From: Bifidobacterium vansinderenii
GTDB taxonomy: Bacteria > Actinomycetota > Actinomycetes > Actinomycetales > Bifidobacteriaceae
Assembly: GCF_002234915.1 (NCBI RefSeq)
Contig: NZ_NEWD01000030.1
Location: forward strand, 1 to 35,116
Reading direction: 5' to 3'
DNA: 35,116 nucleotides
Part shown: positions 10,862 through 33,200 of the stretch, piece after piece
Layout of the letters: each line of letters begins with the position of its first letter
Position numbering within the stretch: the first letter of the stretch is position 1
Made by a program: the position numbers and the translations under genes
The notes under the pieces: generated by a model
Database searches by the model: none
Told to the model about the DNA's origin: nothing
The model's input: only the letters and a program-made list of their open reading frames with translations

Positions 10862-10872
10862 GGGGGGGGGGG
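10862..10872 (+). repeat. G11 homopolymer tract
   Basis: Eleven consecutive G lie in the non-coding part of the TetR-hydrolase spacer. Frames that cross it on either strand have no coding character or ribosome binding site. Tracts of this length are prone to slippage. Here it could alter promoter spacing or be a neutral hotspot. Confidence 0.7.
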
Positions 10873-23251: not shown

Positions 23252-24004
23252 CTACTGGCGAGGGGTGAGGCGGGAGCGGAGGAGGGCGAGGTCGTCCTCG
23301 AGACGCTGCATATGGCGGAGTTGCTGGCGGAGGAGGGCTTCCATAGTGTCGATGCGTCGGTTGAGAGCGGCCAGGTTCGCATCCCGGGCCGAAGAGGCGG
23401 CGGACTCGAGTCCCGGGGGCCGGCCGGTACCCTGCTTGGAGCCGGAGACCGCGCAATCTGCGGAGGAGGCGCCGGAGGGACGCGCGGCTTCCGTCGGGCG
23501 CGGCGCCCAATAGGCGGGGTCATCCGGCGTGAGAACCGGGGAGTCGAACGCATTGCAGCGCAGCGGATATCCATCCTCCACAGCGGCATCCTCAAACACG
23601 GCGTCAAAGGAAGGATCCTCGCTCGCGAACCACTCGGATGTTGAGACGGCATCACGCTCAGGAAGAACGGTCCGGATCGCAGTATCGTCGGCACACTCGG
23701 CAACGGATGTTGACTCATCAGTCTGGGACGCAGAGCCCTGTTCGCCGGCGTGCAGAGCTTCATACCTGACGGCACGACTGCGCCAGCGGGCCACGCAGCG
23801 TTCGATGCGTTTGCGTCCGATGATCGAGGGGCCAAGACCGGCGGCGCGGAAGATGCGCGTGGGCGAATCGCCCGCAGCGCAACGCTTGACCACGTAGTTC
23901 TTGAACGCATCGTTGTAGTAGATTCGACCGCTCATCACGGATTCGACGGCGGGCAGCGTTTCCAGATATGCCTTGGTCTCTGCGTCGAGTTCCTTGCCGG
24001 CCAT
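23252..24004 (-). CDS. HTH and coiled-coil protein of unknown function
   Basis: The protein has 250 residues from the ATG at 24004, which has GAGAGGAG about nine bases upstream; the longer frame to 24298 lacks support. Residues 25-75 (YYNDAFKNYVVKRCAAGDSP, then TRIFRAAGLGPSIIGRKRIE and RCVARWR) look like the helix-turn-helix found in small transposase-like or regulator-like proteins of gut Firmicutes and bifidobacteria. A long acidic, low-complexity middle follows. The last 45 residues form a clear coiled coil (LNRRIDTMEALLRQQLRHMQ). It stands between a MITE-like element and the pilin genes. It could be a regulator or a domesticated transposon protein. Confidence 0.6.
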   Translation of the reverse strand: MAGKELDAETKAYLETLPAVESVMSGRIYYNDAFKNYVVKRCAAGDSPTRIFRAAGLGPSIIGRKRIERCVARWRSRAVRYEALHAGEQGSASQTDESTSVAECADDTAIRTVLPERDAVSTSEWFASEDPSFDAVFEDAAVEDGYPLRCNAFDSPVLTPDDPAYWAPRPTEAARPSGASSADCAVSGSKQGTGRPPGLESAASSARDANLAALNRRIDTMEALLRQQLRHMQRLEDDLALLRSRLTPRQ

Positions 24005-24707: not shown

Positions 24708-26384
24708 TCAGGCGTTGAGCAGGCGACGGGTGCGGGTGGACTTGGCGTACACCGCGGCACCGGCGCCGGCGAGCAGAGCGCCCACAGCCACGAACAGCGC
24801 GATGCCAGCGGCACCGGTGACCGGCAGCTGGGTGAGGCTCTTCACGTTCTCCACGGTCACGGTCGAAGTGTTGCCGTCGGAGACAAGACCCAGCAGATCA
24901 CTAGTCACGGTATAGGCCGGATTCGCCTTTGCATCGTTACCGGTGCCGGAGATATTGGCGTCAATCTTGACATCGAAGGTCAGACCAACGCTGACATAGC
25001 CGTCAGGAGCCGCGATCTCCTTGATGGTGTAGGAACCGGCGTCCAGTCCCTTGAAGGAGACCAGACCATTCTTACCGGTAGTGAACACGCCATCAGCCTC
25101 GGTCTTGGCTCCGTCAGCGGTCGGCTCGCCGCCGAGCTCAACCCAACGAGCCGGAGTCTCGCCAGCAGCGGCAACGTAACCGAGCCACTTTCCAGAGGTC
25201 TTATCCTGAATGGCGAACTTGGCGCCCTGCAGCACAGCAACGGTCGTACGATCAACCTTCTTCAGGTTGTAGTCGAAGTTGAACACCTTGACCGGGGTAC
25301 CGGGGATTTCGTCCTTCTTCTCGTTGTCGGACGGATCGTTCGGGTACACGATGGACGGAGAGTTGGGCGCACCCTGATCGCCGATAGTGCCGGTCACCGT
25401 GGCCGAGTAGGTGATCGTCACCTTCGCGCCTACCAGATCGGTCTTGTCGAACAGGGACTTCTCATCGGCAGTACCATCGAAGCCCTGGGACTGAATGTAC
25501 GAGCTCAGGTCCACGGTGAAGGTCTTGCTGGCGGCATCAAATCCGGTGACCGTGTACTGGTCAGAGTTCAGAGTGGTCTCACCAACCTTGACGGTGAGGG
25601 TACCGGTCTTGTATGCCAGTGGAGCATTGTCCGCGAACTTATCCTTCACCTGGAAGGTGTAGCCCTGAACCTTGTAACCAACGTAGTTCGGGATCTTCGT
25701 GGTAATGGTGTAGGTGGCGTCCTTGCCGATGGCGACGGTCTGGTCATCGACAGCCTTGTCGACGGTGGCGGTCTGGTTCTTCACGTTGATCGTGCCGGCG
25801 GACACGACGGTGCCATCAGACAGCGTCCACGGGGTGCCGACGAGAATGGCCAGCGACTTGGAAGACTTGTCATTCACGGCGTTCTGATCGACAATCAGCC
25901 AGTAGCCGACTTCACCCAGATTGAACGTGGCGGTCGCGCCATTCATCTGCGGATCAACTGTCTTCTGGTCTGCAGCGGTGGACTGGGCAAGAGCATCGGC
26001 GAACTTGCGGGTCACACCAGTGGCGCCATAGAACGGGCTGGCGCCCGAGGTATCCAGCTTGTTGTTGCTGATGGCCCACTGGAGGTAGTCGGAACTCTCA
26101 GCCGGAACGTCATTGACACCAGCAGCTTCAAGAGCAGACTTCACCAGGGCATTCATGGCCGACGAGGCGACCAGCACCTGAGCACCGGTGGAGACATCGT
26201 ACTTGCCGATCTTCACGGCCTTATAAGTGTGGCCGTCGAACTGAACGGCGTTTTCGGCGTTCATGGTGATTGTCGTGTCGGTCGGCAGTACCTCGTCGGC
26301 CGAAGCGGTGGTGGCGCCGAGGGCCAGGCCGCTGAGCAGGGTGGCCGCGGCGGCTACTCCTGCGAAAAGCTTCCTCATCTTCAT
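24708..26384 (-). CDS. major pilin subunit, LPXTG-anchored (FimA-like)
   Basis: This 558-residue sortase substrate forms the shaft of a Gram-positive pilus. It has a signal peptide (1-28, cut near TASA/DE) and pilin-type Ig-like domains. The segment AGTINVKNQ near residue 200 could hold the pilin lysine. An isopeptide D2 region starts near KVFNFDYNLKKVD, the E-box is SYTIKEIAAPDGY, and LPVTG (520-524) is followed by a hydrophobic stretch and a basic tail. A canonical YPK pilin motif is not seen; IVYPND is the nearest. The ATG at 26384 has AGAGG seven bases upstream. It follows the tip pilin gene in the same direction. No sortase gene is downstream. Confidence 0.9.
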   Translation of the reverse strand: MKMRKLFAGVAAAATLLSGLALGATTASADEVLPTDTTITMNAENAVQFDGHTYKAVKIGKYDVSTGAQVLVASSAMNALVKSALEAAGVNDVPAESSDYLQWAISNNKLDTSGASPFYGATGVTRKFADALAQSTAADQKTVDPQMNGATATFNLGEVGYWLIVDQNAVNDKSSKSLAILVGTPWTLSDGTVVSAGTINVKNQTATVDKAVDDQTVAIGKDATYTITTKIPNYVGYKVQGYTFQVKDKFADNAPLAYKTGTLTVKVGETTLNSDQYTVTGFDAASKTFTVDLSSYIQSQGFDGTADEKSLFDKTDLVGAKVTITYSATVTGTIGDQGAPNSPSIVYPNDPSDNEKKDEIPGTPVKVFNFDYNLKKVDRTTVAVLQGAKFAIQDKTSGKWLGYVAAAGETPARWVELGGEPTADGAKTEADGVFTTGKNGLVSFKGLDAGSYTIKEIAAPDGYVSVGLTFDVKIDANISGTGNDAKANPAYTVTSDLLGLVSDGNTSTVTVENVKSLTQLPVTGAAGIALFVAVGALLAGAGAAVYAKSTRTRRLLNA

Positions 26385-26481
26385 GAGAAACCTCTCTTTC
26401 TTCCTTGTTGTTGTGGTTGTTCTGCAACCGCGGAGGCCGAGACCCCATTGGAGGCCTCCGCGATCCGCAAATCTTGAATCT

Positions 26482-26812
26482 CTTGAGTTATATGGAGCGT
26501 GATGCTCCGGGGCGCTCCCCTCTGTCCGACGGAGTCGGACATCTCCCCTCCGTGGGGAGGGGAGACGAGAAGGACAGTGTTGAGTTATGTGGGGCGTGAT
26601 GCCCCGGGTCTCTCCTCTGTTTGGCGAGGCCAGACATCTCCCCTCCCCTGGAGGGGAGACCAAGGAGGGGGACGTGTTTGGTTGTGGAGGGTGGTTGACT
26701 TGTAGCCCTCCCCTCTGTCTGGCGGGGCCAGACATCTCCCCTCCCTTGGAGGGGAGACCAGGCACCTCATCCGTCCGGCTTGGCCGGACACCTTCCCCTC
26801 GAGGGGAAGGGA
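26482..26812. repeat. cluster of four REP-like elements between the pilin genes
   Basis: A ~97-base unit is tandemly repeated (about 26482-26578 and 26579-26675). Each begins TTGAGTTAT, then a small hairpin, then a REP-like two-hairpin unit. The small hairpins are GGAGC-GTGAT-GCTCC and GGGGC-GTGAT-GCCCC, so a base pair has changed on both sides. Further copies lie at 26704-26760 and 26763-26812. The whole 450-base gap between the tip and major pilin genes is made of them. Confidence 0.7.
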
Positions 26813-26837
26813 GAGGACTTGGGCCGAAGCGATTTAT

Positions 26838-29800
26838 TTAGAGGGCGCCTCCTAGCTGCGCGTCTTGTCGGCGCTTCCAGAGGCGGTAGGTGCCGCCGCC
26901 CAGGGCCCCGGCCAGAGCCAGCGCGGCGCCGAGAAGCAGCCAGTCGCGGGCCGTCCTTCCACCGGTGAGCGGCAGGGTCGACACGTTGACGGTGTGGGTG
27001 TTGGTGAAGTCGGACACCAGCACGCCGTTCCACTTGCCCTCCGAGTCGGCCTTCACCTCGACTCCGCCGCCCAGCAGACCCGGCTCGTTGCCCGAGTCGT
27101 TCAGCAGCCTCGTGAGCTTCGGCGTGGCCTTCAGCCCCTCGCCCGCCTTGTAGGTGACGGTGATGTCGAGCTGGTACTTGGCCTTGGAGTAGCGGATCAT
27201 GTTCTTCGTACCGCCCGAACCGGCCTCACCATCGCCCGAACCGCCGCCCGCACCCGACGAGTCAGCACCGGCGCCGAGCTCCTGCACGATGTAGCTGTAA
27301 GTGACCGTGCGCACACCCTCGCCATCGGCCTTCACGCCCTTGATGTCGTTCCAGTTGAACGAGAACGTGCCGAACGTGTCCGAATTGACCAGACCGTTAC
27401 CCTTGTCGCCGCCGTTCGCGCCCGGCTTCGAGATCGTCACCGTGCACGACGTCGCCGCAGAACCACCGTCCGAAGAACCGGCTGCAGCACCAGCACCGGC
27501 ATCGCCCAACTCCACCGACGGCTTCACGCATACATCAACCGGCGCCTCCGAAGTCCCCGCGCCACCGGTCGGCAGCGGTGCTGCACCGGCACCCTTCGTC
27601 TCGACCTCCGACGCATCCAACCGGAACTTGAAGCTCACGCCCTCCGGCCACGTCGGCTCCAAACCATCCACGGTCTTCCTCACCGCGGCGGTCGCAGTCG
27701 TCGGCTCCGGCGTATCGGCCACCTGCACCATCGCGGAACCGGTGACCAGCGAACTCAGCCGCTTATCGCCCAGCTCCACACGACCCACGCTCTTCTCCGC
27801 GCCCTTCGGCGCAGCATCCTGCGTCGTGGACGGCATCAGATAACCGGTATCCGCCACGTACACAAGGTTGCCGTCGCCGGTCTGCGGACCGTACTCCTGC
27901 ACCACGTTGCCGTCGGCCACCGAACCGTATGTCACGCCGATCGTCGTGTCCTTCGCTGCGCCCGTCGTCTTCACGGCACCGTCGGCCACACGCGCGGTCT
28001 GCACGTCGGTCAGCGACGTATCCTCGGCCTTGTCGTCATCCGTCTTCGTATACAGATGCGGAGTCATCCGCAACCAGGTCAGCGTGCTGTCGACCGTCGG
28101 CGAACTGCCGTACGTGTTCATGGTCTTGACGAGGTTGCCCACGCCACGCACCACCTTCACGCCGTCATCCTTCTCACCGGCGTTCACGAACACACCCCAC
28201 TGGTTGATCACGACCTCCACGACCTTGTCGCTGGCCGTGTAACCCTTGGGCGCCTTGGTCTCCACGATGTAATACGTGACACTCGCATCATTGCCGTCAC
28301 TGGTCGACCCACCGGACAGTTTCACGCCCGCGCTGTTCGGGAACGTGCCGGATCCGTTGAAGCGCGGTTCGGTCACGCCGGCCGCGTTCACGTCCTTGGC
28401 TGAACCGGACTTCGTATGATCGGCCGTGGTCAGCGAGTCGACGGGTGTGCACGTGTTCTGCACCATCTGCACTGCGCTGGTCTTCCCATCCGCGGAAGCC
28501 GTCGCCGAGCAGTCGCCGTCCTTGCGATAGATCCTGAACTCCGCCCCGTTCAACGGCGTCTCGTCCTGATCCACCTTCTGCACCGACACCGTGTTGCGGA
28601 TGTTCGACACGTACAGCATCACGGCGAACGTGCGCTTGAACGCGCTGTCGGAGTTGGTGTCCGTCTCGTCGGTGTTTTCCAGCAGATACGTGTTGTTCGC
28701 GTTCACGCCCGCGTTCGTGTCGGACTTCGACCAGTAGTAGCCGACGGAGTACTTTGCCGCGTTCTCGTCGCCGTTCCAGTAGTAGTAGTCGCGGATGTCG
28801 CCCGGCAGATCCTCGAGCATCACGTCGTAGCTGCCGCTCGACGACAGACGGAACTTGTGCGGACTGTTCTGGAACGCCTCCATCACAGCCTTCATATCGG
28901 AGTCGCCGCCCTGGCTCTCCGCGGCTGTGGTCTTCCACCCGTCGATCTGATCGCCGTAGATGCCACGCCATTTGTCGTTGGCGTCCTTCTGGAACACGAC
29001 GGCGAACAGCGTTCCGTCCTTCACCTTGTCGGCGTCCAGATGATGCTTCTTGCCGCTCTTGTCGGTGTAGTACAGATTGCTTTCGTCGGGCGCGCTGACC
29101 TGCACCTGCGCCATGGCGAGCGAACCCGTGTCCCACGCGTTGCCGTCACTGCTCGACGTGCTGGGATCGCTGACGAGCACGCCGGAGTCGCTGGCACTGC
29201 CGACGGGCGACGGATTCGTCTGATACAGCAGATGCATGTCGCCGGCCTTGCGATAGCCGTCCGGCACGGTGGTCTCCGACAGGATGAAATGATTGCCGTG
29301 CTCCTGGGCGATGACGTCCATGAACACCGGCTCGCCGTCGGACGGATCTACGAGGTTCAGATGACCGTTGTCGTCGGTGGTGCCGGCCGCCACGACCTCG
29401 TCCTTCTTCGAGTACTTGTCGTCGCTCGCGTACAGCGTGAAGCCGGCACCCGGAACGGCGTTGCCCTCCTGGTCGATCTTGATGACGTTGCTCTCCGGCG
29501 CGGTGACGAGGTTGAAGCGCAGACTCATGTCCGAGTCCGTCCAGCCGCGTTCCATGTAGTAGAACTTCAGCGTGTGGTAGGTGTTGTCGGCGAACTTATC
29601 GCCGTCCCACGAGGTGGAACCCAGTCGATCCGCCGCTGCGAACGCCTCCCTGAGTGTGGTGGTCTCGACCGGGCTGACCACCTGATTCTTGTTGTTCAGC
29701 ACGGCACGCTCGATCTTGCCGGTACTGAAGTCGATCTTCAGCGAGGAACTGTCGTGGATACCACCCAGATCACCGACGAGCACGTCGTCGATGAACACCC

Positions 29801-31255
29801 ACACGTCGTCGTCGCCGGAGAACTCGTAGGTCACGGGCGTGGTCGGATCAACCACCGTATGACCGCCGTTCTTCTGCACGAAACGACTGCTCATGGTCAG
29901 ACCAAGATAGTGGTTGAGTCGCGGATCACGCGAAGTGACGCTTCCGTCGTATACCAGATGACCGTCACTATCCGTCACCGGCTTGGTGCCGTTGTCGGTA
30001 GTCTTGAACACTTCCGCAGCCGTGTTGAGCGGGAAGAACTGGCCGGGCGCTGTGTTGTTTCCCGACATCACGGCCTTGGCATCGTACAGACGGAACGAAT
30101 TGCTCGTCTTGTCGTAGGACGCGAAGTTCTGCTGACTGTTGTACGTGTAGTAGCCGTCGATGAGCTGGAACAGGCCCCTCACACCCGTGTACGAACGCTT
30201 GCCGTCCTGCGCGGACGTGTCGAACAGGTACGACAGCGATTCGTCCCGCACGAGACCGGTGACGTTGTGATCGGCGCTGTCGTCCTTCTTGAGCTTCGGG
30301 TAGCCGTCCACCAGTGTGTTGTAGACCATGCCGGAGCGGTAGGGGCCGTAGCTTTTGCCGGCCGGTGCCATCCAGCTGTTGTGCAGTTTGTACTGGTCCT
30401 GCGAATACGGGTAGCTGGGGTCCTTGTGCGCCTCGCGGTTGAAGTGCAGCTGGTGGCCGTTGTTGATGCTGCCGGTCCAGTACGGGTAGGCTCCGTCGAT
30501 CGCCCGATACTGACCGTCGGACGCGTCCTCGGCATCCCACCAGTAGTCGAACAGATTCGTGGTGGTGCCGCTCGGGTTCTCCACGTCCTCGGTAACGATG
30601 TGCTTGTCGAAGATGCTGTTGTCGACGGCGGTGGCCGGACGCTTGCAGTGCAGTTTGGACTGATAGTCGGCCACAGTAGTGCAGTCGATCAGGTCGGCGT
30701 CGGTCGCGGACGAGGATGCGGCGGCGGAATCAGCGGAATCGGCGGACTGGGAGTCGGCTTCATCGGAGGACTGCGAATCGTCGCTCTGGGTGGTCTGTGC
30801 ATCGGTGCCGGAGGCGGAGGCGGCATCGGAATTTGCGCCGCCGTCGGTGCTCTGCGAATGGTCGGCGTCGGCGGACGCATTGCCGGAAGAGGCATCGGCG
30901 TTCGGGGATGCGGAATTAGAGGACTGCGAATCGGACTTCGCATCGGTGGAAGCGGATTCGCCAGATGTCTTGGCATCGGTCGAACCGGACTTGGCGGAAT
31001 CGTCGGAGGTCGCGCCAGCGGTTGCGGACGGAACAGCGTCAGTCGATGCGGACGATGCGGCACTGGGCGAGGTAGTCGACGCCGACGAGGCAGATGAGGA
31101 TTCCGACGAGGTGGCGGCTGAGGCGGTATCGACGGCCGCCAGGGATCCGAGCATGCACACGGCCGCCGTCGCGGCAGCGACGGAACGCAGGGAATGCCCG
31201 ATCAGAGGGCTCCAAAACCGGAGACCCCCCCCCGCGAATACTTCGGCAACCTCAT
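26838..31255 (-). CDS. large tip pilin/adhesin, LPXTG-anchored, phase-variable (frame OFF here)
   Basis: In the ON frame this is a secreted surface protein of about 1470 residues. Order: signal peptide; Ser/Asp/Ala-rich stalk (about 50-190); a fibro-slime/PA14-like lectin domain with DDDVWVFIDDVLVGDLGG near 485; CnaB-type domains near 595 (KIDQEGNAVPGAGFTLYA ... VPDGY) and 900 (VQKVDQDETPLNGAEFRIY ... APKGY); then LPLTG about 40 residues from the end, a membrane segment and a basic tail. This is the layout of tip pilins. The ATG at 31255 follows AAGGAGAGAG, but G9 at 31225-31233 leads it to a TGA after 17 codons; G10 restores the frame. A GTG at 31295 is in frame with G9 but lacks a ribosome binding site. 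The major pilin gene follows. Confidence 0.88.
31225..31233 (-). repeat. G9 tract, predicted phase-variation switch
   Basis: Nine G on the coding (minus) strand lie eight codons after the ATG at 31255, at the start of the signal peptide. With nine, translation gives MRLPKYSRGGVSGFGAL and stops. With ten or seven, it continues into RFWSPLIGHSLRS and a normal signal peptide. Poly-G slippage switches are known for bifidobacterial pilus genes. Confidence 0.85.
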
Positions 31256-31422
31256 GCTCAACTCTCTCCTTCCGGCATGCCACCGGGACGTCCACGCAAT
31301 GTTCCCGATACGACGCAGCGAATTCATCAGCATTGCCGCATCATTGGGCCACATACCCTCGCATACGAGGTAAGTGTACCCACCATACAAGATTTTCGGG
31401 GGCATATTTCACAAAACGATTC

Positions 31423-31694: not shown

Positions 31695-31726
31695 AAAAAA
31701 CGGGACCAGGCACAGGCCTGATCCCG
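31695..31726 (-). terminator. intrinsic terminator of ilvA
   Basis: On the minus strand an 11-bp stem (CGGGATCAGGC / GCCTGGTCCCG, one G-T pair) with a 4-base loop is followed by six T. It lies about 30 bases after the ilvA stop. Confidence 0.9.
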
Positions 31727-31757: not shown

Positions 31758-33023
31758 TCAGTACACGCGACGGGGCTGGAAGCCGGCGGCGCGCAGGGCG
31801 GCGAGGATCCTGTCAATATGATCCGGACCGTTCGTCTCCACCGTCACACCCAGCGACACGGCGTTCGTGTAATGGCCGGACGCCTTGAACTGGTCGTGAT
31901 CCAGCTGGATCACGTTCGCGCGCTGCTCGGCCAGCAGCGTGGCCACCTTCACCAGCTGACCCGGCGTATCCGGCAGTTCCACCTCGAAGTTCATGATGCG
32001 ACCACGCGCGATCATGCCCTTCTGGATCACCGCGCCGATCGTCACCGTATCGATGTTGCCGCCGGACATGATCGGCACCACCACATGCGGGCCGGGAGCC
32101 GACGCGAACTTGCGCGAACGCAGGTTCAGATGCTCGAGCGCAGCCAGCGACACCGCACCGGCGGCCTCCACCACCAGCTTATGCTTCTCCAGCATGAGCA
32201 GGATCATCTCATTGATGTCGCGCTCGGTGACCGTCACCAGATCGTCAAGGAACTCGTTGAGCAGCGCGAACGTCAGATCGCCCGGATGCTTCACCGCCAC
32301 GCCCTCCGCGGACGTAACCACCTGCTCGGCCTCAACCACATGACCGGCACGGAACGAATTCAGGAACGCGGGGCTGCCCTCCGGGATCGCGCCGATCACG
32401 CGCACCTCCGGACGGAACGTCTTGATCGCGAGCGCCACGCCGGCGCCCAGACCGCCGCCGCCCAGCGGGACCACCACGTCGGTCACGTCCGGCACGTCCT
32501 CGAGGATCTCCAGGCCGATCGTGCCCTGACCACACACCACCTCGTAGTCGTCGAACGGCGGCACGAAGATCATGCCCTGCTCGTCGCTCAGCTTCTGCGC
32601 GTAGGCGGCGGCCTCGTCGAACACGTCGCCGTGCAGCACCACGTCGGCGCCGTACGCCTTGGTGGCGTCCACCTTGAGCGGCGGGGTGATCTGCGGCATG
32701 CAGATCGTGGCCTTGGCTCCGCGCTCGCGGGCGGCGTACGCCACGCCCTGCGCATGGTTGCCGGCGGACGCGGTCACGATGCCGCGGGCCAGCTCCTCGT
32801 CGCTGAGCGAGGCGATCTTGTTGTAGGCGCCGCGAATCTTGAACGAGCCGGTGACCTGCAGGTTCTCCGGCTTGAGGAGAATCTTGTGGCCGGTCATGTC
32901 GGACAGAACGGGGGATTCAATGATGCGGGTGTGGCGAGCCGTGCCCTTGAGTCGCTTCGCCGCGAGCTTCAATTCCTCGGCATGGTCGCGCTGCAGATTC
33001 TTGATGACGTCTTTCTGATCCAT
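31758..33023 (-). CDS. ilvA: threonine ammonia-lyase (threonine dehydratase)
   Basis: This PLP enzyme converts threonine to 2-oxobutanoate and ammonia, the first step towards isoleucine. In 421 residues the PLP lysine is Lys62 (GSFKIRGAYNK), followed by SAGNHAQGVAYAA and the phosphate-binding loop PLGGGGLGAG. A single C-terminal ACT-like domain begins near GRIMNFEVELPDTPGQL (about 330-421). This is the short Gram-positive form; E. coli IlvA has two ACT-like domains. The frame can begin at a TTG (33032), but the ATG at 33023 is preferred. No Shine-Dalgarno site is seen and TAAGAT lies upstream, so the mRNA may be leaderless. Confidence 0.93.
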   Translation of the reverse strand: MDQKDVIKNLQRDHAEELKLAAKRLKGTARHTRIIESPVLSDMTGHKILLKPENLQVTGSFKIRGAYNKIASLSDEELARGIVTASAGNHAQGVAYAARERGAKATICMPQITPPLKVDATKAYGADVVLHGDVFDEAAAYAQKLSDEQGMIFVPPFDDYEVVCGQGTIGLEILEDVPDVTDVVVPLGGGGLGAGVALAIKTFRPEVRVIGAIPEGSPAFLNSFRAGHVVEAEQVVTSAEGVAVKHPGDLTFALLNEFLDDLVTVTERDINEMILLMLEKHKLVVEAAGAVSLAALEHLNLRSRKFASAPGPHVVVPIMSGGNIDTVTIGAVIQKGMIARGRIMNFEVELPDTPGQLVKVATLLAEQRANVIQLDHDQFKASGHYTNAVSLGVTVETNGPDHIDRILAALRAAGFQPRRVY

Positions 33024-33200
33024 GAATGTCAATCTTAAGAGGCTGTCTCAACAAGCGGGAAGTCGGGACGCGAGGCGTTCCGGCATGCGGGCATCCGGAT
33101 TTTTTCAACAAAACGTAACGCGGCATTCAGATTCGTAAGCGAACTTGGCCATATTCGCACACTAGATTCGGCATTGAGAATTAAGGGAAGTGAAATCGAC

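Follow-up and report, generated by a model that had tools for sequence, protein, structure and literature searches.

A poly-G tract at the start of a tip pilin gene in Bifidobacterium vansinderenii is probably a phase switch

Poly-G tracts are known to switch pili in Bifidobacterium. In B. breve UCC2003, the first pilin gene of two clusters (bbr_0113 and bbr_1889) is split by a G tract, and strains in which the two open reading frames (ORFs) were placed in frame formed pilus-like structures as seen by electron microscopy (Penno 2022, PMC9187656). The same paper reports mixed tract lengths in culture, strongly at bbr_0113, and a rise of the ON length in mice, tenfold and twofold; its Table 1 gives tracts in B. 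longum, B. breve, B. dentium, B. pseudocatenulatum and B. bifidum, with B. callimiconis absent from that table. A 2025 survey of B. dentium repeated a search of this type, and both searches find clusters via a sortase gene. Here we describe a large tip pilin gene on the minus strand of a 35,116-nucleotide stretch of B. vansinderenii DNA, called the window below (NCBI RefSeq assembly GCF_002234915.1, contig NZ_NEWD01000030.1), in which a run of nine G (G9) lies between a well-placed ATG at position 31255 and the body of the gene. We conclude, with a probability of about 0.84, that this tract is a real phase switch and that it sits in an OFF class here, a label that applies to the single assembly and not to a population. 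An earlier reading of these letters, hereafter the original prediction, had proposed such a switch by appeal to bifidobacterial pili in general, and the B. breve work demonstrates that mechanism.

The locus shares several features with the B. breve clusters (PMC9187656): the tract lies in the first pilin gene (8–13 G there according to Table 1, 9 here), a start with a Shine-Dalgarno (SD) site precedes it, the start and the LPXTG motif are in different frames as annotated, and the product is a large tip protein. The distance from start to tract is 21 nt in bbr_0113 (by its coordinates, before a G11 tract) and 22 nt from ATG 31255 to the G9 tract here. It differs in that the B. breve clusters carry a dedicated sortase, in that bbr_1889 has an ORF of 65 amino acids before its tract whereas about seven codons precede the tract here, and in that length variation was measured in the B. 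breve clusters, whereas the tract length here is read from one assembly (PMC9187656). The switch mechanism is thus already published for Bifidobacterium pili; the present locus is distinct in combining tip and shaft genes with no sortase gene, an arrangement that a sortase-based search rule such as the published one would likely miss. No account of this locus was found among the titles and abstract openings of the literature on slippage in Bifidobacterium pili, homopolymeric phase variation, poly-G together with sortase, and B. callimiconis. A genus-wide survey of bifidobacterial sortase pili was reportedly published in 2017 (Milani et al.).

Gardnerella belongs to the same family as Bifidobacterium. 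Its homopolymer tracts likewise lie at surface-protein genes, some of which encode LPXTG proteins, and one tract varies in vitro by Sanger sequencing; its G/C tracts are mostly upstream of ORFs, and the word pilin is absent from the main text of the study (PMC11287997). Repeat length also phase-varies the Pil1 pilus operon of Streptococcus gallolyticus, where five-base GCAGA repeats act by attenuation via a leader peptide, whereas the tract described here lies in the adhesin's own frame (PMC3894217).

The G9 tract (C9 on the plus strand) occupies 31225..31233 on the minus strand and is the proposed site of slippage. Ten bases 5' of ATG 31255 stands the SD sequence GGAAGGAG (31266..31273, minus strand), with a pairing energy of −12.4 kcal/mol, computed with an assumed anti-SD sequence; only 1.7% of the 998 ATGs on both strands of the window match or beat it. 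TTG 31261 shares this SD site and the frame of the ATG. Through G9, the ATG is directed into a short ORF of 17 codons that closes with a TGA ending at 31202 (31202..31255, minus strand), one base off the main frame of the tip pilin. The main frame itself is open 5' of the tract back to GTG 31295 (31225..31295, minus strand), where its starts are GTGs only, with poor sites (−4.3 kcal/mol at GTG 31295 and about −3.6 to −3.9 at GTG 31283); the first starts after these in the main frame fall within the signal-peptide core. Judged from the sequence only, tract length would decide whether the ATG with its SD site joins the frame that carries the secretion signal and the LPXTG motif, the offset here being 1.

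From GTG 31295 to 26838 (minus strand) the main frame is one long frame of 1,485 codons, of which the 1,461 behind the tract (26838..31224) are stop-free. They encode a signal-peptide core (VAAATAAVCMLGSLA, 31137..31181, called by hydrophobicity only), a Ser-rich linker, a putative adhesive head, SpaA-type domains, an LPLTG sortase motif (26961..26975), a hydrophobic stretch and a basic tail. The original prediction had named ATG 31255 as the only start with a strong site, led by G9 to an early TGA and separated by one frame step from an intact LPLTG adhesin; the pairing energies, the reading that ends at 31202 and the frame arithmetic over 1,461 open codons all agree with it.

In the mechanism that we propose, translation would begin at ATG 31255 and proceed across the G tract. 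One length class out of three would link a short n-region to the signal peptide and so to the entire LPLTG adhesin (ON). With the remaining classes, the frame would be lost and no tip secreted (OFF), and polarity may then reduce transcription of the shaft gene downstream. Tract length would be changed by replication slippage. That this tract slips, that polarity reaches the shaft gene and that the protein serves adhesion are inferences.

We examined selection on the gene by comparing it with its orthologue in B. callimiconis (NZ_QXGJ01000011.1; genome G001 in our numbering, in which G, C and L denote genomes, contigs and loci). Read in the main frame, the 38 codons that follow the tract differ by seven synonymous changes and one non-synonymous change, a ratio of non-synonymous to synonymous rates (dN/dS) of 0.05; the two other frames of the same stretch show nine and six changes, none of them synonymous. 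dN/dS is 0.22 over the entire part behind the tract and 0.55 in the Ser-rich linker, values that, together with the stop-free body, support the earlier claim of an intact gene kept under selection. Before the tract, 21 codons in the frame of the GTGs hold two synonymous and three non-synonymous changes, on few sites. The ATG is out of frame in both assemblies, yet the main frame is conserved behind the tract, which argues that the full precursor is made at some time. The full precursor, with its signal peptide, is therefore under selection in these lineages, even though neither reference sequence could produce it from the good start.

Homologues of the tip protein were sought in the window genus, where seven of nine genomes (its own included) match it, G008 over a short C-terminal stretch only, and in two wider draws of 101 genomes each (some shared), in which the head region was matched in 24 and 28 genomes, 46 of them distinct. 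We read 51 loci (27 + 24), of which 47 were placed and kept; L084 and L096 were unplaceable, the frame of L116 opens near the match, and L126 is likely a second copy of L109. Secondary stretches (L100, L102, L103) and further matches, for example in G162, G139 and G108, lie outside the count. Sense-strand runs of at least nine G occur in nine of the 47 loci, seven at the 5' end of the gene and two upstream, and none deeper in the examined parts. Unbroken tracts at the 5' end were found in the window (G9), B. callimiconis (G10), G005 (G10), G007 (G9), G127 (G9), G162 (G10) and G139 (G11), each 19–31 nt behind a start. The ATG is out of frame in the window, B. callimiconis, G007, G139 and probably G127, and in frame (offset 0) in G005 and G162. 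At the same place in G004 and G006, the tract is broken as G6-A-G3 and in frame, as if the switch had been fixed. No start lies upstream of the ATG with its SD site in that frame in these two genomes, and G007 lacks any main-frame start codon ahead of its tract. The original prediction had called for tract lengths to be compared among strains. Between species, both frame states occur among relatives, and the closest orthologue has the same total length, so that a fixed length, which would speak against the switch, is still compatible with that pair.

Two further homologues, L108 (G149) and L112 (G115), have their G10 run not inside the tip pilin frame but 52 and 90 nt before it opens. These homologues may switch through a promoter or leader instead.

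Several observations weigh against a length switch at this locus or limit its reach. Neither a G9 or longer tract nor a broken tract at the start, nor a G9 or longer run upstream, was found in 36 of the 47 placed loci, so the switch is not general in the tip-pilin protein family. The window has G9 followed by T where B. callimiconis has G10, with equal total length across the tract and no insertion or deletion between them; the two are close relatives that count as one lineage, and our sample, with a single assembly for each species, showed no variation in length at the locus. A second in-frame ATG stands directly behind the tract in G005, G004 and G006, which makes their in-frame state weaker evidence. 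G127 has further main-frame ATGs with poor sites, and its out-of-frame call is uncertain, and in G007 the ATG has a weak site (−6.0), with an out-of-frame reading that runs at least 200 codons with no early stop. Homopolymers are prone to miscounting, and tract lengths other than the annotated ones have been found (Penno 2022, PMC9187656). In a tree of 31 chosen loci, drawn without branch supports and counted for nothing here, the tract-bearing homologues are scattered over several parts. Binomial figures were likewise set aside, as they presuppose independence and related species violate it.

Tract length by itself was rejected as evidence, since the window genome (3.11 Mb) has 27 distinct G/C runs of at least nine, fewer than the 41.8 expected from a first-order Markov model trained on the window. 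Nor do G8 matches in the window clearly outnumber those in shuffles, of which 10 of 100 reach the observed count. A crude scan of the 27 runs for the layout seen here, a good start no more than 120 nt ahead of the tract, followed past the tract by a long frame of different phase, picked out the tip pilin gene, one prophage tract and four C-sense places; because it also fires elsewhere, the layout alone is no proof. The evidential weight lies in the position of the tract and its recurrence in relatives, not in its length. A candidate paralogous switch (L002) was rejected as a 29-base match without a long G tract, within interspersed repeats.

Ribosomal frameshifting or transcriptional slippage on the G run, which would yield a constant minority of full-length protein with no change in the DNA, would likewise be consistent with a product of 17 codons and with conservation of the main frame after the tract. 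Slippery G runs are possible sites of both processes, and two close species that are both out of frame fit this explanation as well. Against it, relatives occur in frame as well as out of frame, and in B. breve the change is in the DNA and the ON length becomes commoner in mice (Penno 2022, PMC9187656); we consider it unlikely here. Constant expression from GTG 31295 (or 31283), with no role for ATG 31255 and its site, is quite unlikely too. Both GTGs can be reached in the open main frame in the window as in B. callimiconis, but they pair far more weakly than the ATG; the 21 codons before the tract show three non-synonymous to two synonymous changes as opposed to one to seven in the 38 behind it (few sites); and in this frame no start lies upstream of the SD-bearing ATG in G004 and G006 or before the tract in G007.

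A decaying pseudogene, or a G9 that is an assembly error, might be suspected in a draft assembly of 68 contigs, homopolymers being error-prone. The 1,461 stop-free codons and the low dN/dS, lowest just behind the tract, argue against decay, and a separately sequenced species with the same frame relation argues against an error, which leaves both very unlikely. A precedent in S. gallolyticus pil1 (PMC3894217), where repeat length controls a pilus operon via a leader peptide, would allow the short ORF to be a leader whose length controls attenuation; in G005 and G162, however, the frame of the ATG runs straight into the adhesin, and a hairpin scan found no terminator-like hairpin on the minus strand between the start and the tip gene body, so that this explanation is barely credible. 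We therefore favor phase switching by tract length over each of these alternatives.

The pilus locus has the features of sortase-dependent pilins (LPXTG anchors, a signal peptide and SpaA/CnaB-type domains) and continues with a shaft pilin that bears SpaA and GramPos_pilinBB domains and an LPVTG motif (24708..26384, minus strand, from ATG 26384). None of the five sortases in the window genome is on the 35 kb contig of the locus (C24). The ORFs behind the shaft gene gave no sortase match in the window or in B. callimiconis, which has the same gene order and likewise no sortase. The contigs of the homologues in G001, G004, G005 and G006 also lack one; the nearest is about 135 kb away in G007 and about 22 kb off on the contig in G127, whereas G162 and G139 have a sortase roughly 5 kb past the tip match. 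The switch therefore occurs with and without a linked sortase. Polymerization of these pilins into fibres would require a sortase that works from a different locus. It is possible, if doubtful, that in this lineage a sortase-less, phase-variable pilus locus relies on the sortases of other loci, and that switching would alter the set of tips and shafts in competition for common assembly machinery rather than act on a self-contained cluster.

At the position where a sortase would be expected stands a conserved gene (23252..24004, minus strand) with no Pfam or NCBIfam match. It was rejected as a sortase, no sortase match being found for it in the window or B. callimiconis. It contains a motif like LPAVExVxxGR[IV]xYxxxF, and its copies in both species are Pfam-negative. 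Genes like it stand close to pilus genes in G007 and at two other places in the window genome (the C11 copy by eye only), and copies of the motif gene beside pilus genes are found at L033 (near 14345), L068 (7026–7664), L069 (near 11835) and L073 (1087–1545). A G14 run (G000:C10, 16202–16215; L011) precedes the first ATG of one copy by about 60 bases. That the gene binds DNA is only an impression; its family is perhaps one of regulators.

Between tip and shaft lies a structured spacer (26395..26845, minus strand; fold z −7.9 relative to shuffles) with GC-rich inverted repeats, without a T-tailed terminator on the coding strand. A scan of the spacer found no minus-strand terminator or promoter consensus, a weak silence given that the tip gene's own promoter was equally missed. 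A terminator-like hairpin (31701..31726, minus strand) separates the locus from the upstream gene (31758–33032) and is within chance, three such sites being found in the region versus 5.0 in shuffles. No relatives of the tip were found among viral contigs, phage records and PDB sequences, and a Foldseek search gave no match at E ≤ 0.001; absences in fold searches were not counted against any family.

Other G tracts were seen elsewhere in the genome. Runs of G9–G11 recur in apparent prophage tail genes of G000 (L128–L131): C12 84677, 85677 and 86078; C34 291777, 293187 and 293684; C20 16091 and 16521; and C56 100133. The C12 frame over one tract matches major-tail and Ig-domain families, and all seven scanned ORFs on C12, C34 and C56 match phrog_35081 or phrog_35108. 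Some of these tracts are spanned by an uninterrupted frame. At others, an ORF closes shortly after the tract and a different frame carries the following unit, as though slippage joined or separated tail modules. The main text of one bifidobacterial prophage paper contains none of the terms poly, homopolymer, slippage and frameshift. In the window, a G11 run (10862–10872, plus strand) lies in a gap of about 600 bases between genes for a TetR-type regulator and an alpha/beta hydrolase.

Our reading would extend the pilus switch demonstrated in bifidobacteria to another species group, which includes B. callimiconis, and to pilus loci without a sortase. If such loci do rely on sortases encoded elsewhere, they would be invisible to surveys that start from a sortase gene. 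Assemblies or annotations could place the starts of tract-bearing genes wrongly, for example at GTG 31295. With natural in-frame, out-of-frame and broken-tract versions across species, host selection of the pilus state becomes testable.
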